Positions 9,945 through 45,133 of a stretch of 45,448 nt of DNA are shown piece by piece. Each line of letters opens with the position of its first letter. Positions within the stretch are counted from its first letter, which is position 1. The notes under the pieces are model-generated. The model had not been told where the DNA came from. It ran no database searches and was given only the letters and a program-made list of their open reading frames with translations. The DNA comes from an uncultured Elusimicrobia bacterium (lineage in GTDB: Bacteria; Elusimicrobiota; Elusimicrobia; Elusimicrobiales; UBA9959): assembly GCA_903873295.1 (NCBI GenBank), contig CAIQNV010000146.1, forward strand, positions 1 to 45,448, written 5' to 3'. Made by a program: the position numbers and the translations under genes.

Positions 9945-10582
9945 ATGTTTTTTTCCTCCCGCGAGCCTCTCCCCGCAACGGCCTTTAATATCATAAGTTT
10001 ACCCGGTTAGCGGCCGCATTCCATGAGGCCGAAGAACCAGGGCGGTCCGATTATTTGACCCAGGAGGCGCGGCTTAGCTAAGCTGCCTTTAGGTAAGCGG
10101 ATGGCTTAATTATTGAAAAATATTTTAGCGGCAATTATTCCGGGCTCAGCCGTTTTCGCGGGCCCAAGCCCTGGCAAAACTACATTGCGGGGTTTATAAA
10201 AATTGACGTGCTGAGCTTGCCGCCACCTGACAAGGAAGCCTGATGGCCTTTGGGAGCGGGACCTTTTGAACCTTTGGAACTTGCAGATCCAGGCAAATGC
10301 GGTAAACTATTAGAGGGAAGTCCTCTTTCCCACCAACACCAGGCTGCGCATAATAGCCGTCCCCAGCCTCCCCCGGGGCGGCAAGGCCGTCTACCCTGAA
10401 GAATTACCCTGACCGCCCTTCTTAATGCTTACAAAGAGACGATAGTTTGAGGCGGTTTTTTTGCCGTCGCGGCAGTAAGGTCCGGAAGGCCAGTTAAACT
10501 ACAGGCCGATCGGTACAAACAAAACCGCCGGGCTTCCCCGGCGGTTTCTGGCCTGCTGCTGCTCCGGCCTTTAGCGGCAGCG
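9945..10582. other. Intergenic region without a supported gene
   Basis: A stretch of 638 bases with no open frame of credible length on either strand. It holds several short GC-rich stems around 10350-10390 and the terminator at 10522-10547. A segment at about 10479-10497 (GGTCCGGAAGG) recalls the SRP RNA core, but the following AAGCAGCC is absent. I see no other structure that I can name. Confidence 0.5.
10522..10547 (-). terminator. Terminator after the zinc-ribbon gene
   Basis: An 11-bp perfect stem, AAACCGCCGGG (10522-10532) pairing with CCCGGCGGTTT (10537-10547), with a 4-nt loop. On the minus strand it is followed by TTTTGTTTG-like bases, 35 bp after the stop of the zinc-ribbon protein. 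Confidence 0.8.
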
Positions 10583-16179: not shown

Positions 16180-16215
16180 GCCGGGCGAAGCTTTGAAGCT
16201 TCGCCCGGCTTTATT
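16180..16215 (+). terminator. Terminator after the serine protease gene
   Basis: A 14-bp perfect stem, GCCGGGCGAAGCTT (16180-16193) pairing with AAGCTTCGCCCGGC (16196-16209), followed by TTTATTA. Confidence 0.85.
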
Positions 16216-33184: not shown

Positions 33185-33254
33185 TGCTTTCCTCCTGGCA
33201 CTGTAATTTTATGGCCGGTCCGGGCGGCCGCACGCCGCCCGGACCGGCACGGTA

Positions 33255-34673
33255 TCAAAGCAGGTCCATGCGTCCCGCGAAGACATGCAGCCCTTCTATC
33301 ACGTCAGTGGGGATAGTGGCGTTGAGCTGGCCGGCGTTCTGTTCGTCCGGCTCCACTATCAGCGCGTCCTTATTGGCGGCTACGTTCTCTATCAGTTCCA
33401 GCGCTTCGCACTGTTCCAGCACGTCCAGGAGCTCGGTGCGCACGCTCTTCTTCTTCCCCGCGCTCAGCTTCTGCCTGGGGAACCGCAGCGCTATCCGTGC
33501 GACGGTCGCTTCCCGGACATAGTCCATGGTGGTCAGCTTGGTCACGTCCAGGATCACCAGGTCTTTTATCCCGTCGCCATTCTTGTTATAGTTCGAGATC
33601 GCCCGGACTATGCACACTTCCTCGGAGACGTTCACTTCCAGCGGGGTAAGTCCGCCCTTCAGGCAGTCCTCCTGTTCCTCCCGTGAAAGCCGGTCGGCGA
33701 TCGCCGGCGCCGCTATCCCGGCCAGGGGCAGCCCGTTCAGCGGCCGGGCAGGATCCGGCTCGGAAGCCCAGACGGCCGCCTCGGCCGCCGCCACTTCCCA
33801 GCTCAGGTTCAGCGCGCCGCGCAGGTAGGGGAGATGCAGCCGCGGCTTGTTGAGGTCCGCCGAGAAGTCCAGTTCGTCGGCAATGGCCCCGATCCTGGCC
33901 GCTATGCCGAAGCCGGGCTTCTTCTCTATGGGGCCGCTCATCAGGTTCAGGTGATCGCTCAACTTGCCCAGGGCAGTGTCGCTGTTAACGCAGCTCACTA
34001 TGAAGTGGTACCGCTTACCCCGCACCGCGGTCAGGCTGGCCTCTATGCTCGGGTCTACCAGACCGTTAGCCAACGGGGTGAGTGTGGCGGTGATGCCGGG
34101 CACGGTGCTCTCGGCGGAGAGGGGGATGGTATTGCCCAGCGTGCCCTTAACCTTGGCGGTGAAGTCCACCTCGGCGCCGTTCACGGCCGCTCCCAGCGGC
34201 AGATCCGGGCTGTCGGCCAGCAGGGCAACCAGCGCGGCGGCGGCCTCGGCCGCGGTGTCGCCGGAGGCCACAGCCAGTTCCAGCGTTTCGTCGCCTACCG
34301 CCAGGGTTATCAAGCCGGGACTGGTGGCCGTGCCGGCCAGCACCACCTTGCCGGTGGCCGCGACGGCGCCCTGGCCGTCCTCCGGCGCAATAACAGTGAG
34401 CTCGGCGTACTTGTTAGCGGTCAAAGCCGCTATAGCCATCCGGTGCGCCACGGAGCCCTGGCCGAAGTAAACACCGGCCTCCAGGTCCGAGTAGATCCTC
34501 ACCGGGAGTTCCGGGGTTGCGGTTCCGTCCTCGGTCATCTGCCCTATCAGCAGGATGCTCCTGGCCACGGCCGGCAGGCTGCGCTTCGCCAGCTTTAGGT
34601 TGTACTCTATGTACTGCCCCGGCTTCAGTATGCCCGAGGGTATCGAATCGAAAGAAACGTTTTTAGACGCCAT
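33255..34673 (-). CDS. Contractile tail sheath protein, Mu gpL-like
   Basis: A 472-residue sheath protein. N-terminal FDSIPSGILKPGQYIEYNL is the typical Mu gpL opening, followed by ILLIGQM and, at 90-230, an Ig-like insertion (VVLAGTATSPGLITLAVG, ANGLVDPSIEASLTAV). The conserved C-terminal third (VSEEVCIVRAISNYNKNGDG, LDVTKLTTMDYVREATVARI, ATIPTDVIEGLHVFAGRMDL) is the sheath core. Its presence proves a contractile (myovirus) tail. AGGAGGAG precedes the ATG. Confidence 0.93.
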   Translation of the reverse strand: MASKNVSFDSIPSGILKPGQYIEYNLKLAKRSLPAVARSILLIGQMTEDGTATPELPVRIYSDLEAGVYFGQGSVAHRMAIAALTANKYAELTVIAPEDGQGAVAATGKVVLAGTATSPGLITLAVGDETLELAVASGDTAAEAAAALVALLADSPDLPLGAAVNGAEVDFTAKVKGTLGNTIPLSAESTVPGITATLTPLANGLVDPSIEASLTAVRGKRYHFIVSCVNSDTALGKLSDHLNLMSGPIEKKPGFGIAARIGAIADELDFSADLNKPRLHLPYLRGALNLSWEVAAAEAAVWASEPDPARPLNGLPLAGIAAPAIADRLSREEQEDCLKGGLTPLEVNVSEEVCIVRAISNYNKNGDGIKDLVILDVTKLTTMDYVREATVARIALRFPRQKLSAGKKKSVRTELLDVLEQCEALELIENVAANKDALIVEPDEQNAGQLNATIPTDVIEGLHVFAGRMDLL

Positions 34674-36101: not shown

Positions 36102-36989
36102 TTATGCCAGGAAAGGCACCACCAGCACTTCGGCGGATCCCATCCAGGGATTGCTTTCGGCGTTGGCCATGTTCTGGCCGTAGCAGATCTTGCGGGCGGC
36201 GGCCTCGTTGGAGGGTCCCACCACCAGCAGCCTGCCGTTCAGCCCGAGCGGAACGCCGGCGTCGTTCTTGAATCCGCCGATGGCCGCCCTGGCCACGGCG
36301 TAGTTAGTGGCGTCGAGCGCTTTCTTGGAACCGAACGCCATCTGCCACAGGCCGTAGCCCACGTTGTCCCGCGACTCCACGCCGTACAGGAACGTCTTGT
36401 TCTTGAAGACATGGTCGGACATCGGGTCGGTCTGCGCGGCGAAGCTAGGCTTCTCCCGGTTCTGGAAGACCAGGGCCTTCACGGCGCGGCTGTTATCCAG
36501 CAGGAACCAGGGAACCTGGACATCCGACTGGGGCACGTCCATATTCGAGACGGTTGTCTTCCCCACTTTATGAGCCGCGTTGAAGAACGACAGCCCGTCA
36601 TAGCAGAGTTCGATGAAGCCGGCCACCAGCTGCGCGTACACCAGCTCATCGGGATGCGAAGCCGCGGAGCGGCCCATCTCGGAGAAGATCGGGTTGAAGA
36701 TGCCGATCTTGTCGTCGTTGATGTTGTCCCTGGGCACTTCCACCGTGGACTCCCAGGGTTTGTTGACGATGGTGTACTTGTTGGCCTTCAGGTTCTTGAA
36801 CTGCCTCTCGCCTATCCACTCGCGCATGTCGGGCCACGCGCCCAGCCAGGCGTAGTTCTCCTCCTCGGCGGTGGAATCCACTTCCATGGCCACCTGTTTA
36901 TAGGTGGGCGTGTAGGCCGCGAAGGCATTCGCGAACAGCACGTTGAACGCTGCAAATATCGCAGCAAGGTTTTCTTTGTTGATTATCAC
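36102..36989 (-). CDS. Major capsid protein, Mu gpT-like
   Basis: A 295-residue major head subunit of the Mu gpT family (HK97 fold). Recognised by the start MIINKENLAAIFAAFNVLFA, then AAYTPTYKQVAMEV, WLGAWPDMREWIGERQFKNL, the long helix, AHKVGKTTVSNMDVP and the C-terminal GNARLLVVGPSNEAAARKI-like segment (here LNGRLLVVGPSNEAA). It starts with GTG after GAGAGG. Slightly shorter than Mu gpT, about 305 residues. Confidence 0.93.
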   Translation of the reverse strand: MIINKENLAAIFAAFNVLFANAFAAYTPTYKQVAMEVDSTAEEENYAWLGAWPDMREWIGERQFKNLKANKYTIVNKPWESTVEVPRDNINDDKIGIFNPIFSEMGRSAASHPDELVYAQLVAGFIELCYDGLSFFNAAHKVGKTTVSNMDVPQSDVQVPWFLLDNSRAVKALVFQNREKPSFAAQTDPMSDHVFKNKTFLYGVESRDNVGYGLWQMAFGSKKALDATNYAVARAAIGGFKNDAGVPLGLNGRLLVVGPSNEAAARKICYGQNMANAESNPWMGSAEVLVVPFLA

Positions 36990-37052: not shown

Positions 37053-38198
37053 TTAAGCCGCGGCCAGGGTGTATTCCACCTGGAGCACCATCGCGGGCGG
37101 GTTCGCGGTGGCGCCGTTCGTCACCGTGAAGTGCAGCTTAGTACCGGCCGCCATCACCTTATTCGCCACGCTCAGCGCGCCCAGGGCGCCGGAAGCGTTC
37201 TCCGCCGGCATCCCGTTCGCCGTGTTGTAGGTCTTTGACACTATCGCGTCGGTGTCCCGGAGCAGGGCGATAACGCAGGTGTTGGCATCGTCCACCCCCG
37301 CGGCGGCGCCCTGCATGATTATGCGGGCTTCCGTTATGGTGGCCACCAGCCCGGCAGGCACTTCCAGCACGGCACGGGTGGCTATATCAACCCCGGCCGC
37401 CAGGTCTTCGATGGGCACAGACAGGATATGTTTCTTGGCCGTATCGTGCAGCATAGAGAGCAGCACCTTCGCCGCCCCTATAGCCGTTACGCCGGCTTCG
37501 CTTACGGTAACGTCCCCGGTAAGCGTCTGAGCCGCGGCCGCGCCGTCCGCTCCGCCGATGAATAACTTCCCCTGCGCCAGCGCCACCATAGCGGCGAGAA
37601 CTTTCTTCGCGCCGATGGCTATCACGCCTCCGTTCGTCACAGTAGCGTCGCCGGAAAGCGTCTGTGCCGCGGCCGCGCCGTCCGCCCCGCCGATCAGAAC
37701 TTTCCCGTCTGCCAGCGCCACTTTGCCGGCGGTAACTTTCTTGGCTCCGATAGCCGTGGCGCCGTTGTTGATGGTAACGTCGCCCGTCCAGGGCCCGGCC
37801 ACGTAATCGGCGCCCATCTGCACCCACACCTCGGTGGCCGATACCACTTCTTTGATCACACCGGCATAAACGGCGTTATTGCCCTGCGCCAGCGCCACCG
37901 TGGAATCGTCCACGATGAAACAATCCTTACCCGCGTCGGCGGCAGTCATGCCGGCCGCGTCGTACAGGTATTCGCACTGCTCCACCTCTATCTGTATATC
38001 GCCGTTCTCGCCGGCGGTGTTGTCCACCGTTTTTTCGGCGCGTCCCACTACCACCAGGCCGGCGGCGTCGGCCGCGGCCAGCGCGTAGCCGGCGGCATTG
38101 CGTGCCACTATGGCTCCGGCGAATATCTTTTCACCCGTGGCCACTCCGATTACGATCATCTTCCCTTCGCGTTTCGGTGTATCTCTTTCTTCAGTCAT
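37053..38198 (-). CDS. Head decoration/head-fibre-like protein with internal repeats
   Basis: A 381-residue protein between the protease and the capsid gene, where Mu-like phages encode a small structural cement protein. Residues 1-130 form a beta-rich decoration-like domain (GEKIFAGAIVARNAAGYAL). A repeat of about 44 residues follows at 139-182 and 183-227, plus a partial copy at 228-250, each with GDVT-type start, TAIGAKKV, and LIGGADGAAAAQTL-type end. Such repeats occur in phage head fibres. The C-terminal part is a separate beta domain ending MVLQVEYTLAAA. GGGAGGAAAG precedes the ATG. An exposed capsid fibre is a fair inference. Confidence 0.75.
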   Translation of the reverse strand: MTEERDTPKREGKMIVIGVATGEKIFAGAIVARNAAGYALAAADAAGLVVVGRAEKTVDNTAGENGDIQIEVEQCEYLYDAAGMTAADAGKDCFIVDDSTVALAQGNNAVYAGVIKEVVSATEVWVQMGADYVAGPWTGDVTINNGATAIGAKKVTAGKVALADGKVLIGGADGAAAAQTLSGDATVTNGGVIAIGAKKVLAAMVALAQGKLFIGGADGAAAAQTLTGDVTVSEAGVTAIGAAKVLLSMLHDTAKKHILSVPIEDLAAGVDIATRAVLEVPAGLVATITEARIIMQGAAAGVDDANTCVIALLRDTDAIVSKTYNTANGMPAENASGALGALSVANKVMAAGTKLHFTVTNGATANPPAMVLQVEYTLAAA

Positions 38199-38260: not shown

Positions 38261-38785
38261 TTAGGCCTTTTTATTGTGTTTCAGGAAATCTTCCCTGGAA
38301 ATACCCAACTGCTTGCAGGCCACCAGCTCGGCCGCGTTCAGCTCCTCGCCTTCGGCTTTGGGCGCGGGTTCCTTGCTGTTGGCACCAAGCGCTACCACCA
38401 CCGGCGCTTTAGCCGCGAACACCTTAAAGCCTTCGGGGTCGGTGCTGGCGTAGTTCTTCGCCCAGTCGCTCTGTGCGGGTGAGATCTTGCCGGCCTTCAT
38501 GGCCACCTGCACCAGCTCCTCGGCGTCGCGCGCGGCCAGTTTATCGCTCAGGCTTTTAACCTGGGTAGCCAGCTCGGGCGTCTTATCCGAGCCGCTCTTC
38601 ATGGCGATGATAGTTCCCACTATCTCCGACTCGTTCGCTTTCTCCGTAAGCCCCAGGGCGGTGAGCACGCCTTTACAGGCCACCGGTATGTTCCCGGCGG
38701 CAGTCTTCATGGCGCTGATCGCCGCTATCGCTTCCGTCTCCGTCGCCGTGGCGGCAAGCCCCAGCGCTTCCAGTATAGTCTTCAT
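38261..38785 (-). CDS. Internal scaffold protein, Mu Z-like (in-frame start within protease gene)
   Basis: An in-frame ATG at 38785 (MKTILEALGLAATATETEAI) is preceded by GGAGG 11 nt upstream, a strong Shine-Dalgarno inside a coding region. The 174-residue product would be exactly the scaffold half of the protease gene. In Mu, scaffold Z is made from an internal start of gene I, so this nested gene is expected. Confidence 0.75.
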   Translation of the reverse strand: MKTILEALGLAATATETEAIAAISAMKTAAGNIPVACKGVLTALGLTEKANESEIVGTIIAMKSGSDKTPELATQVKSLSDKLAARDAEELVQVAMKAGKISPAQSDWAKNYASTDPEGFKVFAAKAPVVVALGANSKEPAPKAEGEELNAAELVACKQLGISREDFLKHNKKA

Positions 38786-39295
38786 CGTTATAGTTTCCTC
38801 CGTAGTCTTTTGGGTTTCGGCGTTCCCGCCGGGTACTTCCTGCTTGGCTACTATAGGCTGCATACCGTCGAAAGAAGGGGCGTTAGTGAGCGCCGCGCGG
38901 CAGAACTTGAGTATCCGCCCCTTGGCGTCCGCATAGAACACCGGAGATAAGTAGCGGTATTCCCGGTTGCCTACCATATCGGCCGCCCGTTTACACCAGT
39001 TAACCTTCCCCCAGATCCCCGCTTCGCCCTTATTCACAAGTTCCGTTATCCAGCCGGCCGCCGGCGCTATAACGTCATCTTCGGTCTGGTGCTCATAGTC
39101 TATTACGGCGTCGTTCTTGGTGGTTTTATGAAACTGCATCACCATTTCGGCGCCGGGTTTATCCAGGGTAAACGTCCCTTTATCGGTTTTATTTACCCCG
39201 AACGGGAGCAGCTGCACCTCCGCCGGCGGTTTCCCGCCTTCAGTGGCCAGTTCCAGGAACAACATCCCCTTCCCGTCGTCCGCCTGTTTCGCCAT
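38261..39295 (-). CDS. Prohead protease with scaffold, Mu I-like
   Basis: A 344-residue Mu I family protease. The N-terminal catalytic part has VQLLPFGVNKTDKGTFTLD, DAVIDYEHQTED (with the probable active-site His), AAGWITELVNKGEAGIWGKV and YRYLSPVFYADAKGRIL. The C-terminal part, after about residue 170, is Ala/Glu-rich and coiled as in scaffolds. It processes the prohead. The open frame has a GTG at 39334, but GGAG before the ATG at 39295 and the predicted transcription start near 39332 favour 39295. First gene of the minus-strand late operon. Confidence 0.9.
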   Translation of the reverse strand: MAKQADDGKGMLFLELATEGGKPPAEVQLLPFGVNKTDKGTFTLDKPGAEMVMQFHKTTKNDAVIDYEHQTEDDVIAPAAGWITELVNKGEAGIWGKVNWCKRAADMVGNREYRYLSPVFYADAKGRILKFCRAALTNAPSFDGMQPIVAKQEVPGGNAETQKTTEETITMKTILEALGLAATATETEAIAAISAMKTAAGNIPVACKGVLTALGLTEKANESEIVGTIIAMKSGSDKTPELATQVKSLSDKLAARDAEELVQVAMKAGKISPAQSDWAKNYASTDPEGFKVFAAKAPVVVALGANSKEPAPKAEGEELNAAELVACKQLGISREDFLKHNKKA

Positions 39296-39338: not shown

Positions 39339-39410
39339 TTTATACCAGATGCCCCGGCGCTGACTCTACTGAACGGTTCAGTAGAGGAAACAGAAGTAAC
39401 CGAGTAAAAT
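39339..39410. promoter_or_regulatory. Divergent late promoters sharing one perfect palindrome
   Basis: A perfect palindrome CTCTACTGAAC-G-GTTCAGTAGAG spans 39364-39386 (centre 39375). On the minus side a -10 TATAAA lies at 39344-39339, on the plus side TAAAAT at 39405-39410. The near edges of the two boxes are 31 and 30 bp from the centre, so the palindrome centre is about -43 and -42 for the two start sites. Neither promoter has a good -35. This geometry is that of a class II activator site and recalls the activator-dependent late promoters of Mu, including the one before gene I. Confidence 0.7.
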
Positions 39411-39446: not shown

Positions 39447-39881
39447 ATGCTTAATGCTGAATTTTGGCTGGAGCTGGCAAAATACTGGGGCCCTGCAATA
39501 GCTGTACTTGGCGCCTGGTACTACCATAACCGGGAGCAGAACAAGCTCTGGGGCCAGATGCTTGAGAATAATAAAGCCCAGTCGGCCGAGATGATAAAAA
39601 TAAACGCCGACCAGGCGAAAGAAGCGCTGGAAAGCAACAAAGTGCAGACCGCCGAGACCATGCGCATGATCACCGCCCAGGCAAACCAGACCCTTGAGAA
39701 CAACAACAAGATCTGGAGCAACGTATTCGACATGTACCGCCAGCAGCAGACCCAGCAGAATGAAGTGCTTAAGCAGATGCTTGAAACTTCCCAGTACCAA
39801 GGCGCGCAGCTGAGCCGCATGGAACAGAAGATAGACACCAATCAATTTTGTCCGCTGGTGAAAAAGGAGCAGAATAAATGA
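39447..39881 (+). CDS. Membrane-anchored coiled-coil phage protein (Mu gp25/DUF2730-like)
   Basis: A 144-residue protein with one N-terminal membrane helix (YWGPAIAVLGAWYYH) and a long coiled coil full of Gln, Asn and Glu (about 30-130). The layout and the position three genes before the large terminase match the DUF2730 protein of Mu, whose role is unknown. A spanin-like lysis role is another possibility. GGAGG precedes the ATG. First gene of the plus-strand late operon. Confidence 0.65.
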   Translation: MLNAEFWLELAKYWGPAIAVLGAWYYHNREQNKLWGQMLENNKAQSAEMIKINADQAKEALESNKVQTAETMRMITAQANQTLENNNKIWSNVFDMYRQQQTQQNEVLKQMLETSQYQGAQLSRMEQKIDTNQFCPLVKKEQNK

Positions 39882-40135
39882 ATCCCGAGATCGTCAAGAT
39901 GCGTAACGACCTGGCCATGCTGCGGCATAAAGCCGCCAGCCTGCGTGAGGAGGCCAGCGGCGCTATCCCGCTTATCCGCCTTTACCTGCCGCCTTACGGC
40001 AACGACGCGGTAATGAGCGCCGACACCGAACAAGCCCTTTCCCTCTGCAAGCGTCTCCATGCGCTGAAGAAAGACCTGGTCAAGACCCTGGCCGACATAA
40101 AAACGCTTGAGGAGGCGCTGGGCGATCATGAGTAA
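39878..40135 (+). CDS. Small coiled-coil phage protein (position of Mu gp26)
   Basis: An 85-residue helical protein (MRNDLAMLRHKAASLREEA, then KRLHALKKDLVKTLADIKTL). The start overlaps the upstream stop (ATGA) and its end overlaps the small terminase start, so it is part of the packaging operon. No family assigned with confidence; it occupies the place of Mu gp26. Confidence 0.7.
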   Translation: MNPEIVKMRNDLAMLRHKAASLREEASGAIPLIRLYLPPYGNDAVMSADTEQALSLCKRLHALKKDLVKTLADIKTLEEALGDHE

Positions 40136-40601
40136 AAAACATCAGCTCGCAGCCGATGCCGAGCGCCTCTACGTGAACGAGCAGATGACCCCCGAGGCCA
40201 TAGCCGGCCGCTTGGGGATATGCGAGAAGACCGTCCGCATCTGGAAGGACGAAGGGCGCTGGGCCGAGAAGCGCGAGGCCTACGTGAAAAGCCGGCAGCA
40301 GTTCCACGAAGAGCTCTACGATTTCGCCCGGCTGCTGATGAAGTCCATGAAAGAGGACATCGCCGGCAATAAGAAGCTGGACGCCGGCCGCATGCACATG
40401 CTGATGAAGATCATCCCCAATATAGCCAAGGTCAAAGACTACGAGGCCGCAGCGGCGAAGCTGGAAGGCAAGACCGCTGGTAAGGACCTGGGCAAAGAAC
40501 TATCCAAGATCATCGAGGAGCAACTGATGGGCGAGCATCCCGATGAGGCGCCAGCCGAGGCGGCCGCTCCGGCCGCGCAGCCCGGCGGTGACGCTGAATG
40601 A
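40128..40601 (+). CDS. Terminase small subunit, DUF1804-like
   Basis: A 157-residue protein with an N-terminal helix-turn-helix: AERLYVNEQMTPEAIAGRLG, then ICEKTVRIWKDEGRWAEKR, typical of phage small terminases and DUF1804 proteins. A helical centre (DFARLLMKSMKEDI) for ring formation and an acidic Ala/Pro tail follow. The ATG at 40128 overlaps the upstream stop region with GAGGAGG in range. It should recognise viral DNA and load the large terminase. Confidence 0.85.
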   Translation: MSKKHQLAADAERLYVNEQMTPEAIAGRLGICEKTVRIWKDEGRWAEKREAYVKSRQQFHEELYDFARLLMKSMKEDIAGNKKLDAGRMHMLMKIIPNIAKVKDYEAAAAKLEGKTAGKDLGKELSKIIEEQLMGEHPDEAPAEAAAPAAQPGGDAE

Positions 40602-42040
40602 AAGCTCCGGCGTACTTTCTCCCGTACCAGATAGCCTGGCTGAAAGACAAATCCAGGATCAAGATCTGGGAGAAGTCACGCCGCATAGGCGCAACCTACG
40701 TCCAGAGTTACGAGGACGTACGCGACTGTATCGAGGGCACCGTCCCCTGCGTCTGGTTCTCCTCTGCCGACGAATCCGCCGGCCGCGAATACATCCTGTA
40801 CTGCGAGAAGTGGGCCAAGATCTTCAACGCCGGCGCGCAGATGCTGGGCGAACTGGTCCTGGACGAAAAGAAAAAGATCAAAGGCCTGGTGCTGGAATTT
40901 AGTAACGGCCGCCGGATCACCGCCCTCACCTCCAATCCCAAAGCGTTCCGCTCCAAGGGCGGCAAGGTAGTCCTGGACGAATACGCGCACCATGACGACG
41001 CCGACGAAATGTGGAAGGCCGCCAAGCCTTGTATCACCTGGGGCTTCCCGCTCCGGATCCTCTCCACCCACAACGGCACCGGCAGCCGGTTCAACCGTTT
41101 CATAGAGAGCATCCGCAAAGGCCGGCTAAACTGGAGCCTGCACACCACGTCCATCTTCCAGGCCGTAGCCGACGGCCTGGCCGACAAGATCCTCGGCCGC
41201 CCGCTTACCAAGGCTGAGCGCGACGCCTGGATAGAAGCCGAGCACCAGGACTGCGACGACGAAGACACCTGGCAGCAGGAATACTGCGTCGTAGCCACAG
41301 ACAGCGCCTCCTCGTTCCTGCCCTACGATCTTATCCGCGCCTGCGAGTTCAAAGACTGCCTGGTCACGGATAAGCGCGACCTACTCACACTGCCCGGAGA
41401 TTTTTACCTGGGCTTTGACGTGGCCCGCAAAAAGCACCTGGCCGCCATCATCCTCCTGCAAAAATACGGCGGCATGCTGTGGCTGCGCTGGATGAGCGTG
41501 ATGCTGAACCAGAAGTTTAAGTTCATGAAAGAGGAGCTCTACTGGCTACTGAAGCTGCCGCAGCTGCGCCGCGGCTGCATAGACTCCACCGGCCTCGGCA
41601 TGCAGATGGCCGAAGAAGCCCAGGACGACTTCGGCAAGTTCAAGGTGGAGCCCATCACTTTCACCGAGTCCGTCAAAGAAGAACTCGCCTACGGCCTGCA
41701 TCCCTACTTCGAGGATGTAGCCATCCGCATCCCGGACCAGTTCGAACTGCGCGAGGATCTGCACTCCATCAAGAAGATCACCACCAAGGCCAACCACATA
41801 CGCTTCGACGCGGATGCCAACGGGGATAACGGGCATGCGGACCGCTTCTGGGGTTTGGGACTAGCCACCCACGCCATCTCCAAAGCCACCGGCCCCATCC
41901 ACGCCGCCTCCGGCTCAGCCAGCCCGGACTCCAAACTTTTAAAGGGCTACGGAGACGGCTTTGAAAAGACCGAAACCGGCCTGTTTTTAATGCGCCCGGA
42001 CCACAGCAAGCGCAAAAGGCCGCTTTTTAGCGGATATTGA
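40598..42040 (+). CDS. Terminase large subunit, Mu gp28-like
   Basis: A 480-residue packaging motor. The ATPase half has the Mu-type Walker A variant EKSRRIGAT (25-33) and Walker B VVLDEYAHH (124-132, with D127-E128), with the coupling motif STHNGTG further on. The RNase H-like nuclease half has D274 in LGFDVARKK, D329 in CIDSTGLG and D415 in GHADRFWGL, which together form the metal site. The start overlaps the small subunit stop (ATGA). All key residues are present, so it should be functional. Confidence 0.95.
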   Translation: MKAPAYFLPYQIAWLKDKSRIKIWEKSRRIGATYVQSYEDVRDCIEGTVPCVWFSSADESAGREYILYCEKWAKIFNAGAQMLGELVLDEKKKIKGLVLEFSNGRRITALTSNPKAFRSKGGKVVLDEYAHHDDADEMWKAAKPCITWGFPLRILSTHNGTGSRFNRFIESIRKGRLNWSLHTTSIFQAVADGLADKILGRPLTKAERDAWIEAEHQDCDDEDTWQQEYCVVATDSASSFLPYDLIRACEFKDCLVTDKRDLLTLPGDFYLGFDVARKKHLAAIILLQKYGGMLWLRWMSVMLNQKFKFMKEELYWLLKLPQLRRGCIDSTGLGMQMAEEAQDDFGKFKVEPITFTESVKEELAYGLHPYFEDVAIRIPDQFELREDLHSIKKITTKANHIRFDADANGDNGHADRFWGLGLATHAISKATGPIHAASGSASPDSKLLKGYGDGFEKTETGLFLMRPDHSKRKRPLFSGY

Positions 42041-42264: not shown

Positions 42265-43818
42265 ATGACCCCAAAAAAACCAAACCGCCGACCCCTGAAC
42301 CCGCGCAGCTTTCAGCGCCTGGCCTGCAAATCCATGTCCGGCAACACGCAGTCCTTCCTTCCCGGCGAAATAGCCTCCCGCGAACGCGGCCTGGGCTTCT
42401 ACCTCGCCCCCGGCATGCCGCTCCCTAACCCCGACCCCGTGCTCAAGAAGATGGGTAAAGATATCTCCGTCTACACCGACCTGCTAGTTGATGACCACGT
42501 AGGCGGTTGTGCCGACTCCCGCGCCGCCGGCGTGTTGTCACTCAACTGGGCCGTGGACAACGGCAAAGCCCCCAGCCGCGCCGCGGCGTTCTGCCAGGAC
42601 ATGCTGAAAGCCCTCGATATGCCCCGGCTCATGTCCGAGATCCTCAGCGCGCCGCTCTTCGGCTACGCCGTGCTGGAAATAATCTGGCAACTGGGCGCCG
42701 ATAACCTGGTCCGCCCCGTCTCCGTGCAGAAAAAGCCCTGTACCTGGTTCGCTTTCGACGGCTACGATAAGCTCATGTTCCGCAGCCGTGAGAACCCCAT
42801 GGGCGAGATCCTGCCGCCCAGGAAGTTCCTGCTGTCCTCCCATAAAGCCAGCTACGAGAACCCCTACGGCCAGCCTGTTCTCAGCCGCGTCTTCTGGCCG
42901 GCCACTTTTAAAAAGGCCGGCTTTAAATTCTGGGCTGTCTTCATCGAGAAATATGGCACTCCCCACGCCGTAGCCAAAACCCCGCGTGGCACCGGCGAGG
43001 CTGAAGTCGCGGACCTAATGTACATGCTGGATAATATGGTGCGCGACGCCATCGCCGTAATCCCCGACGATTCTTCCGTGGAGATAAAAGACTTCGCTGC
43101 CTCCGGCGGTTCTATAGACGCTTACGAACGCTTCCTGGCCTACTGCGAGAAGTCCATCTCAAAGGGCCTCCTGGGCCAAACCCTCACCACCGACGTAGGC
43201 GACAAAGGCAGCTACGCGGCCGCCAAAACCCACATGGAAGTTCGCCGCGACATCGTGGACGGAGATAAAAAGGTAGTGGAGCGCACCTTCCAGCAACTTA
43301 TTAACTGGACCTGCGAGCTCAACTTCCCGAACGAGCCGGCCCCCGTCTTCAGCCTGTACGCCCCCGAGGATGTGGACATGGCGCAAGCCGAACGCGACGA
43401 ACTGCTCACCAAGATCGGTGTGCGCTTTAAGCCGGCCTACATCCAGCGCGAGTACGATCTGAAGCCCGAGGACTTCGACCTGGTGGACCCCGCCGCCGCC
43501 AGCACGCCGCCCATCCCCGGCGGCCAGCCCGCCACCCAGTTCGCCGGCAAAGCCCCTACCCCAGCCGTACCGGCTGCATCCGTGGATCCTGTTATGGCCG
43601 CGGCCGACAAGCTGGATCCCGCGGCCCTACAGGCCCAGCTCGAAGGCGTGCTGGCCCCAGTGATGGACGCCATCAAGGCCGGCGGCACCTACGAGGAAAT
43701 AGAAGCCGGGCTCATAGCCGCCTACCCCGAGATGGACAGTAAACAGTTCCAGGACACCCTTGCCCGCGCCCTCTACGTGGCTGACATCTGGGGCCGTATA
43801 ACCGCGAACAAAAACTGA
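42265..43818 (+). CDS. Portal protein, Mu gp29-like (DUF935)
   Basis: A 517-residue DUF935 portal. Family segments include DVSVYTDLLVDDHVGGCADS-like text near 65-85 (here DISVYTDLLVDDHVGG), FGYAVLEIIWQL, PVLSRVFWPATFKKAGFKFW, the AVFIEKYGTPHAVAK stretch and SKGLLGQTLTTDVGDKGSYA, which is the strongest hallmark. The C-terminal 100 residues are Ala/Pro-rich with a helical end. It forms the dodecameric DNA gate of the head. CGGAGAAA precedes the ATG. Confidence 0.93.
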   Translation: MTPKKPNRRPLNPRSFQRLACKSMSGNTQSFLPGEIASRERGLGFYLAPGMPLPNPDPVLKKMGKDISVYTDLLVDDHVGGCADSRAAGVLSLNWAVDNGKAPSRAAAFCQDMLKALDMPRLMSEILSAPLFGYAVLEIIWQLGADNLVRPVSVQKKPCTWFAFDGYDKLMFRSRENPMGEILPPRKFLLSSHKASYENPYGQPVLSRVFWPATFKKAGFKFWAVFIEKYGTPHAVAKTPRGTGEAEVADLMYMLDNMVRDAIAVIPDDSSVEIKDFAASGGSIDAYERFLAYCEKSISKGLLGQTLTTDVGDKGSYAAAKTHMEVRRDIVDGDKKVVERTFQQLINWTCELNFPNEPAPVFSLYAPEDVDMAQAERDELLTKIGVRFKPAYIQREYDLKPEDFDLVDPAAASTPPIPGGQPATQFAGKAPTPAVPAASVDPVMAAADKLDPAALQAQLEGVLAPVMDAIKAGGTYEEIEAGLIAAYPEMDSKQFQDTLARALYVADIWGRITANKN

Positions 43819-43819
43819 T

Positions 43820-45133
43820 ATGCCCGACACACCGGACCTGCATTATGCCATCGGCCTGGAGCCCAAGGAAGCCCTGCGCTATCTGGCCGGCAGGACCAAC
43901 TACTTCCCGTCGTTCGACTGGCACACCGTCTGGGAAGACGCCCACGCCAAAGCCTTCGCCGTGGCCAAGGCTATGCAGGTGGACGTGCTGAAAGATATTC
44001 ACGGCGCCGTGCAGGACGCCATGAAGAAAGGCATGACGGTGCAGGAGTTTCGCAAGTCCATGGAGCCCACGCTGCAGGCTAAAGGCTGGTGGGGCCAGAA
44101 GAAGATGGTGGATCCGGGAACCGGCAAAGAGCGGATGGTGCAGTTGGGCAGCCCGCGCCGGCTGGAACTGATCTACCGCACAAACATGGCCACCGCAGAG
44201 AGCGCCGCCCGTTACCAGGACTTTGTGGAGTCCGCCCCGGAGCGCCCGTTCTGGCAATTTATCTGCGTTATCGACGCCCACACCCGCCCTACACACCGCC
44301 GGCTGAACGGCAAAGTGTTCCGCTGGGATGATCCGTTCTGGAACACCTTCTGGCCGCCCCTGGACTGGGGTTGCCGTTGTGGCGTACGCAAACTTACCGA
44401 AGACCAGGTAAAGCGCATGGGGCTGACTGTTGAATCCTCCGCCGGACGCATCACCGAAGAGACGCGCACGCCGAATAGGCGCACTAAGGAAGATCAGCAG
44501 ATCTCGGTATACAAGGATCCTTTAACCGGGGAGAAAGTTTCAACCGGCCTGGGCTGGAACTACAACCCCGGCCAGGCCTGGGCACTGGACGCGCGATCCT
44601 GGCAAAGCGCCCAGGCCTTGCCGCTGGCCGGCCGCCGCACCGTACTGGCGGACCTGGCGAAGAATAATCTGGTGGCAAAAGTATGGCCGGAATGGGTGGA
44701 CGGCATCCTGGCGCGCAAAACCACCAACGGTTTCGTCGCTACCCTAGGCTGGATGAAGCCGGCTGTTTTCGAAAAGCTAACCGAACTTGGACTTAAACCG
44801 GAGTCGCCCTTGATAATCGCTGACGATATAGGCATTCGGCACACGCAGCGCCAGAAAAAACTACAGCGCGGCCAGGCCATAACGATAGAGGAGTTAAAAA
44901 AACTTCCGTCGTACATCTCAAATTACGACGCTGTCCTTTACGATAAGGTGAATAACAACATCCTGTACGTGGTGCGTACCGCCGAGACCAAAGCCGGGAA
45001 AGCCGTTATAGAAGTTAATTATAACCTGCGCGGCCTGCAGCAGCCCGTGAATCTTTTTATAACCGCCGGTGACGTTAACGCCTATAACCTTGCAGAGTCG
45101 CGTTACATTCTGCTAGATGGGAAATTAAAATGA
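43820..45133 (+). CDS. Mu gpF-like minor head protein with C-terminal PBECR-type nuclease domain
   Basis: A 437-residue protein in two parts. The MuF domain is marked by NMATAESAARYQDFVE, then ICVIDAHTRPTHRRLNGKVF (about 148-167) and FWPPLDWGCRCGVRKL. The C-terminal part from about residue 325 (LIIADDIGIRHTQRQKK with H341, EELKKLPSYISNYDAVLYD, NILYVVRTAE, AVIEVNYN) looks like the phage-encoded Barnase-EndoU-ColicinE5/D-RelE-like nuclease domains that are often fused to MuF. A virion protein carrying such an RNase could be injected as an anti-host effector. The ATG follows the portal stop by one base. Confidence 0.87.
   Translation: MPDTPDLHYAIGLEPKEALRYLAGRTNYFPSFDWHTVWEDAHAKAFAVAKAMQVDVLKDIHGAVQDAMKKGMTVQEFRKSMEPTLQAKGWWGQKKMVDPGTGKERMVQLGSPRRLELIYRTNMATAESAARYQDFVESAPERPFWQFICVIDAHTRPTHRRLNGKVFRWDDPFWNTFWPPLDWGCRCGVRKLTEDQVKRMGLTVESSAGRITEETRTPNRRTKEDQQISVYKDPLTGEKVSTGLGWNYNPGQAWALDARSWQSAQALPLAGRRTVLADLAKNNLVAKVWPEWVDGILARKTTNGFVATLGWMKPAVFEKLTELGLKPESPLIIADDIGIRHTQRQKKLQRGQAITIEELKKLPSYISNYDAVLYDKVNNNILYVVRTAETKAGKAVIEVNYNLRGLQQPVNLFITAGDVNAYNLAESRYILLDGKLK

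Follow-up and report, generated by a model that had tools for sequence, protein, structure and literature searches.

A perfect palindrome between the divergent late operons of a Mu-like prophage as a candidate operator for a single late activator

Can two phage late operons that run away from each other be switched on from one shared site? The question is raised by a contig of an uncultured Elusimicrobia bacterium, hereafter the window, i.e., the entire contig of 45,448 bases from an assembly of 3.49 Mb. From about 18.1 kb to its right end, this contig carries a Mu-like prophage in which tail, sheath, capsid, and protease genes form a leftward run, and a small protein, a small-terminase-like protein, the large terminase, the portal, and a minor head protein form a rightward run (Table 1). 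A perfect palindrome of two 11-base arms around a single base, CTCTACTGAAC-G-GTTCAGTAGAG, has the protease/capsid/tail genes on one side and the terminase/portal genes on the other.

The palindrome and its two promoters

A preliminary description had claimed a perfect 11-1-11 palindrome with -10 boxes 30 and 31 bases away and poor -35 elements, and we confirmed it at the position given in Table 1. Indeed, from the centre at 39375, the first base of TAAAAT on the forward strand is reached after 30 bases and the first base of TATAAA on the reverse strand after 31. The leftward box is of the extended TGn type (TG at 39346-39347, full block TGGTATAAA). With spacings of 15-19, the best -35 match is 3/6 on either side, and the listing of a consensus scan has no sigma70 promoter at the palindrome region. 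With start sites deduced from the -10 boxes, their first base being taken as -12, the palindrome is centred at about -42 of the right promoter and about -43 of the left one. This is the arrangement of a Mor/C-dependent promoter, i.e., a -10 box is present and a dyad lies near -43, where the -35 element would be. The protease likely starts at the ATG at 39295, which is preceded by a GGAGAA ribosome site, and an alternative GTG (39334) lies upstream of the inferred transcript start. With this likely start, the palindrome is upstream of both inferred starts and would thus be part of neither transcript.

Table 1. Positions of the palindrome, the proposed promoters, and the genes discussed in the text (window coordinates unless a genome is named)
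Feature	Position	Strand	Remarks
Perfect palindrome, 11-1-11	39364-39386		Proposed operator of a single dimeric late activator
Leftward -10 box TATAAA	39344-39339	-	Proposed promoter of the protease/capsid/tail operon
Rightward -10 box TAAAAT	39405-39410	+	Proposed promoter of the small-protein/terminase/portal operon
Inferred tail-side prophage end region	18115..18196		Matches the tail-side prophage ends of G155 and G003 over 74-82 bp at 95-97% identity
Tail sheath, within the leftward run	33255..34673	-	phrog_165
Major head protein	36102..36989	-	phrog_371
Virion structural protein	37053..38198	-	phrog_1731, match to residues 1-128 of 381
Head maturation protease	38261..39295	-	phrog_328, E 3e-73
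Small protein, encoded first in the rightward run	39447..39881	+	phrog_23321 (function unknown), residues 103-141
DNA-binding protein, likely small terminase	40107..40601	+	phrog_756, E 3e-17; weaker small-terminase matches
Large terminase	40598..42040	+	phrog_5909, phrog_2
Portal	42265..43818	+	phrog_113
Minor head protein	43820..45133	+	phrog_220
Mor/C-like gene, near the early operon end, after A, B, and a gene with a sub-threshold Gam match	G155 162.94-163.28 kb; G003 2.25-2.59 kb

The N-terminal part of the small protein looks membrane-spanning when its sequence is judged by eye. The prophage ends come from terminal matches between prophages, a search for TG...CA ends with 5-bp target duplications having given none.

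Long inverted repeats are common on this contig. With arms of at least 11 bases and spacers of 0-12, the window itself yields 12 matches, which correspond to five distinct palindromes at nested spacings, while 60 first-order Markov sequences of the window's dinucleotide content yield a mean of 0.23. Besides the one starting at 39364, these are found at 33214-33248 (15-5-15), 16180-16209 (14-2-14), 1778-1813 (13-10-13), and 10522-10547 (11-4-11), the last three being located outside the prophage. Among the five, only the 39364 palindrome has a spacer below 2, and it is the one sited in the divergent promoter region. In a region of 112 bases, its score was reached by 0 of 300 base-composition shuffles. 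When up to 3 mismatches are allowed, a single copy is found in the host assembly of 3.49 Mb, and the window likewise has one copy when up to 6 are allowed. The palindrome does not recur in the window contig or in the stretches read of two related genomes, G003 and G155. The stronger evidence that the palindrome is real comes from the comparison of relatives rather than from these chance statistics.

Conservation among close relatives

Relatives were collected via homologues of the protease, with the criterion that a homologue of the small gene face the protease gene. Five further loci were obtained in this way: L003, an IMG/VR contig (protease 60% identical to that of the window); L013, in the genome G003 of the same genus (58-60%); L178, in the genome G155 of the same family (68-69%); L004 (56%); and L097 (51%). 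The L003 contig stops in the first codons of the small gene, whose identity there is judged on about 10 residues. A perfect palindrome with a one-base centre lies between the small gene and the protease gene in 6/6 loci, window included, and its arms measure 11 bases in the window, L178, and L013, 12 in L003 and L004, and 15 in L097. The half-site is CTCTACTGAAC in the window and L003, and the other four loci carry CTCTACTAAAC, CGTTATTAAAC, TCCAATCCTGTGAAC, and GGGCTCTTGCAT. Thus, its letters vary among loci and the variation is mirrored between the arms.

We quantified this covariation on the five distinct 23-base rows. All 55 of 55 cells are paired, which follows, row by row, from how these sequences were found, the rows being the palindromes themselves. 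In 9 of the 11 pairs a change is seen on both sides, and in none on one side only. The percentage paired, the number of changed pairs, the number of changed cells, and the covariation score were each reached by 0/500 shuffles, and the number of pair types by 4/500; when the register of the palindrome alignment is slid, only 28-40% of the positions are paired. For conservation, the weight lies on the presence of a palindrome at all six homologous places and on the mirrored changes. Compensatory changes would be equally expected of a stem, i.e., of an RNA hairpin or a terminator. We nevertheless hold this explanation to be scarcely credible for the locus, since the palindrome is upstream of both inferred starts, no T tract follows it, and a terminator scan did not return it.

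The promoters are conserved in another manner. In the window, L178, L003, and L013, which are the closest loci, the right -10 box is found at 30 and the left TGnTATAAA at 31, ungapped, in 4/4 cases, and the spacer DNA between the palindrome and the -10 boxes is largely variable. On the right side, ACCGAGTA is invariant in the same four loci. The -10 boxes of L004 and L097 are weak, with a loose fit to the 30/31 offsets.

Two side observations concern this intergenic DNA. The ACCGAG motif directly before the rightward -10 box (39399-39404 in the window) is invariant in the window, G155, G003, and L003; its conservation exceeds the needs of a -10 box, and it has no counterpart on the left side. 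In L097 and L004, the rightward promoter is separated from the small first gene by GC-rich hairpins (11-2-11 and 10-3-10, respectively).

The palindrome could also be regarded as an element marking the physical centre of the prophage, with a role akin to that of the strong gyrase site of Mu and not primarily as an operator. We know of no description of the Mu gyrase site as a palindrome. It occupies a central position in Mu, upstream of gene I (PMC3820752), and our palindrome misses the midpoint by about 40 bp in the G003 prophage and lies at 0.47 of the length in the G155 prophage, the extents of the two prophages (about 921-39522 of G003:C58 and about 131652-164256 of G155:C18) being inferred from terminal matches. 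However, a central location may just reflect the gene content, and the maintenance of the -10 boxes at a fixed distance on both sides points to transcription, which makes this alternative very unlikely.

Scanning IMG/VR for the exact palindrome returned one contig only, and scanning it for the conserved right promoter block returned the same contig. Searches for relatives with the G003 protease and with the Mor-like protein of G155 found none. A scan with the L097 protease provided 31 new loci; in none of them do perfect arms exceed 10 bases within the stretch searched before the protease gene. In the phages collection, all terminase and protease matches are below 60% identity.

The candidate activator and its proposed action

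Which protein would bind such a site? The window is the whole contig, and the activator gene of its own prophage, being off the contig, is not seen. The 90%-complete assembly of its host has no match to the G155 transposase, and a Mor profile finds in it only two weak matches (E 0.03 and 0.1). The early region is present in two relatives, G003 and G155. Its genes encode a transposase (with a Mu-transpos_C match in G003, and a 74% identical partner in G155), an AAA protein, and a protein with a sub-threshold match to Gam; a c-like HTH_3 gene is divergent from the early operon in both genomes. This operon (155.3-163.9 kb of G155:C18; 1.2-11.5 kb of G003:C58) reads outward to the phage end. The early operon of Mu runs inward.

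Near the end of the early operon, we identified a protein of 113-114 residues, found once per genome when both whole genomes were searched, and 61-62% identical between G003 and G155. When these two are aligned with three further members, 5/5 sequences match phrog_836, a family annotated as "late transcriptional activator", with E values of at most 0.1 (best 1.8e-6), and the G155 member alone matches this family among the PHROGs with an E of 6e-4. Profile alignment (hhalign) to Mu Mor and C extends over 89 columns, with an E of 5.6e-5 and a probability of 66%. The two focal members have no Pfam match above the cut-off, a model of the Mor-like monomer (pLDDT 72) gives a best Foldseek E of 2.4 with no solved relative, and the phages collection contains no relative at E up to 1. 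The protein is thus likely a remote member of the Mor/C group, as judged from these profile matches. The preliminary description had suggested looking for a Mor/C-family or other regulator gene to the right of the window; a Mor/C-like gene is found in both relatives with an early region, the window's own copy lying beyond the contig.

At the Mu promoter Pm, the -35 element is replaced by a 16-bp dyad, centred at -43.5, to which a dimer of Mor binds (PMC4390567; PMC4287176). As the palindrome is centred at -42/-43, a Mor/C-like dimer bound to it would sit in the Mor position for both promoters. We propose that a homodimeric late activator of the Mor/C-like type has its operator in the palindrome and that one dimer activates both late operons, and we give this reading a probability of roughly two in three. 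Following induction, the activator would be produced by the early operon. Its dimer would bind the single palindrome, centred about 42 to 43 bases upstream of both starts, and would replace the -35 element for sigma70 RNA polymerase on each side, so that the protease/capsid/tail and the terminase/portal operons would start together. Each promoter would have its half-site, and the exact two-fold symmetry would provide an identical geometry in both directions. Given the size of polymerase footprints, the two polymerases would probably load alternately, as they would touch at the centre if bound together. That the dimer binds here, that transcription starts at these points, and that both operons are activated at once are predictions made from the DNA. 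The earlier suggestion that a single activator dimer could serve both operons is thus supported in part, by the symmetry and the spacings kept despite changed letters and by the Mor/C-type gene.

Alternatively, the lysogenic repressor (a c-like HTH protein) could use the palindrome as its operator, so that both late promoters would be covered and silenced in the prophage. Since it spans both -35 regions, the palindrome could repress on both sides, and c-like HTH_3 proteins are encoded divergently from the early operon. On the contrary, the c/early region possesses its own operator-like repeat, with different letters, around a TTGACA/TAYACT pair, and the late palindrome is absent there. By inspection, the early promoter of G155 and G003 indeed combines a TTGACA -35 element with this repeat of its own. 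Moreover, promoters without a -35 element require help rather than silencing. A repressor operator is thus improbable in our view.

Somewhat less improbable, though still doubtful, is that the palindrome serves a dimeric activator other than the Mor/C-like protein, such as the cysteine-rich product of the last early gene or another small early protein acting like Ogr. In G155 and G003, the last early gene encodes a cysteine-rich protein (81 and 76 aa, 51% identical), and the genes after that of transposase B encode more small proteins, including one with weak HTH matches; at the late promoters of P2, the zinc-finger activator Ogr is required (PMC3931495). However, the match to a late-activator family belongs to the Mor/C-like protein, and the geometry of Mor suits a centre at -42/-43. 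By inspection, the cysteine-rich protein lacks the CX2CX22CX4C arrangement of Ogr and has only weak zinc-finger matches. This exact spacing was found in none of the early proteins inspected. A 69-aa protein encoded at the end of the packaging operon of G003 has the near-Ogr spacing CX2C-X21-CX4C. The Mor/C-like protein remains our preferred candidate.

Distant phages and known divergent systems

How far does the arrangement extend? We surveyed the stretch upstream of the protease gene in 163 of 169 loci (L011, L017, L068, L070, L102, and L138 were omitted, L017 sharing its contig with G003 and L102 with L007; L178 was added later). Perfect arms of at least 11 bases with a spacer of 0-5 occur in 17/163 loci, and with a spacer of exactly 1 in 5/163, namely L003, L004, L013, L097, and L037, which belongs to an Oscillospiraceae genome. 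For the terminase, the listing of upstream palindromes covers 33 of the 80 loci, and the short weak match in G207 was left unused. Divergence of the protease gene from the terminase or portal gene is rare in the protease set: the portal is on the protease strand in 134 of the portal-matched loci and on the opposite strand in 2, and for the terminase-matched loci the numbers are 41 and 4.

A second set of Mu-like phages comprises 15 loci (L181-L184, L186-L195, and L202) with 33-37% G+C and a terminase that is 54-58% identical. Here, the small gene and the terminase face a leftward gene of 264 residues (cut off) in L184 and of at least 321 residues in the other 14. This gene was not matched by tblastn with the window protease, and it encodes a head maturation protease of phrog_976 in the four loci scanned (L182, L187, L188, and L193), a family likewise found in the G+C-rich L197 and L198. 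None of the 19 loci scored (the 15 plus L197, L198, L204, and L205) exceeds a palindrome score of 9 over the 300 bases that precede the small gene; the shuffle fraction is below 0.05 in four of them (L182, 0.02; L205, 0.04; L197, 0.01; L198, 0.00). In L050 and L215, where the terminase and protease genes are on opposite strands, no perfect palindrome with arms of at least 9 lies between them. Since these distant divergent loci are without such a palindrome, the divergent gene order is possible without it, and the second set is likely under some other late control. Thus, the conservation that the preliminary description expected among relatives with conserved flanking genes is complete in the near group and does not extend to distant phages whose protease and terminase genes are divergent.

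Several repeats met in this survey were set aside. The 14-1-14 palindrome of L182 (4633-4661) lies between a holin-like gene and the protease gene, both on the same strand, and has no T tract. The AT-rich 10-1-10 palindromes of L188, L189, L192, L193, and L202 are inside the small gene, and the 11-4-11 repeat of L215 is inside the terminase gene. By inspection, the L197/L198 repeats (9-3-9 and 8-3-8) have no -10 boxes at matching distance. We also discarded the GTTATAAC repeats near the protease ribosome site of Firmicutes phages. In Firmicutes Mu-like phages and similar viral contigs (L025, L033, L034, L035, L077, L129, L170, and others), head-to-tail GCGTTATAACGC palindromes are found near the protease ribosome site.

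The closest known system is that of Mu, with which the locus shares weak promoters, a dyad that stands in for the -35 element (at about -43 in Pm), and a Mor gene located after the replication genes; the PI promoter of Mu also lies just upstream of the protease gene. We know of no role of momP2 as a second late-operon promoter. In Mu, C acts after Mor and activates four late promoters (PMC4461284). Thus, Mu uses a relay from Mor to C and then four separate late promoters (Plys, PI, PP, and Pmom), whereas here each genome (G003 and G155) has a single Mor/C-like gene, and a single site lies between opposite late operons. The sites differ too: the Pm site measures 16 bp, with a 5-bp arm on either side of a 6-bp spacer, unlike the longer, perfect, odd-centred 11-1-11 palindrome. 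By this comparison, the palindrome would work like a Pm-type site, and we do not class it as the same element.

The late promoters PP and PO of P2 are divergent. They belong to a system in which activator-dependent late promoters serve the PQ and ONMLKRS operons (PMC3931495). The P2 Ogr/delta proteins are zinc-finger activators with a TGT-N12-ACA site at each promoter, in contrast to the one palindrome shared here, and by inspection TGT-N12-ACA occurs in none of the six palindromes. CRP bound at one target reportedly serves two opposite promoters. One activator site likewise serves two divergent promoters in the case of FlhD4C2 at flgA/flgB (PMC12781870) and of CtrA at fliL2p-fliF2p (PMC6180460). 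These three are host regulators with further sites in the cell, whereas the site described here would be a single phage late switch. The preliminary description had called such a bidirectional switch a design not seen described. One-site divergent activation is in fact known in bacteria; as to a Mu-like phage whose late operons share one site, we met no description among the open-licence PubMed Central papers that our searches listed.

In conclusion, the preferred reading amounts to a Mor/C-like regulation rebuilt into one two-way switch. We tentatively extend it to the whole phage group, with clearly less confidence than we place in the operator itself: one symmetric operator would be the sole late switch, one Mor/C-like protein would act on both operons, and the Mor-to-C relay of Mu and its several late promoters would be collapsed into it. 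The letters of the operator would track the recognition helix in mirrored steps, insulating the activators of related phages from each other. If this is true, the late programme of a Mu-like phage depends on a single site of 23 bp, and the parts for the capsid and for packaging are kept in step through geometry alone. The six loci would then offer a natural series of operators, symmetric yet differing in their letters, suited to the study of DNA recognition by Mor/C proteins and of the joint change of a regulator and its sole operator.
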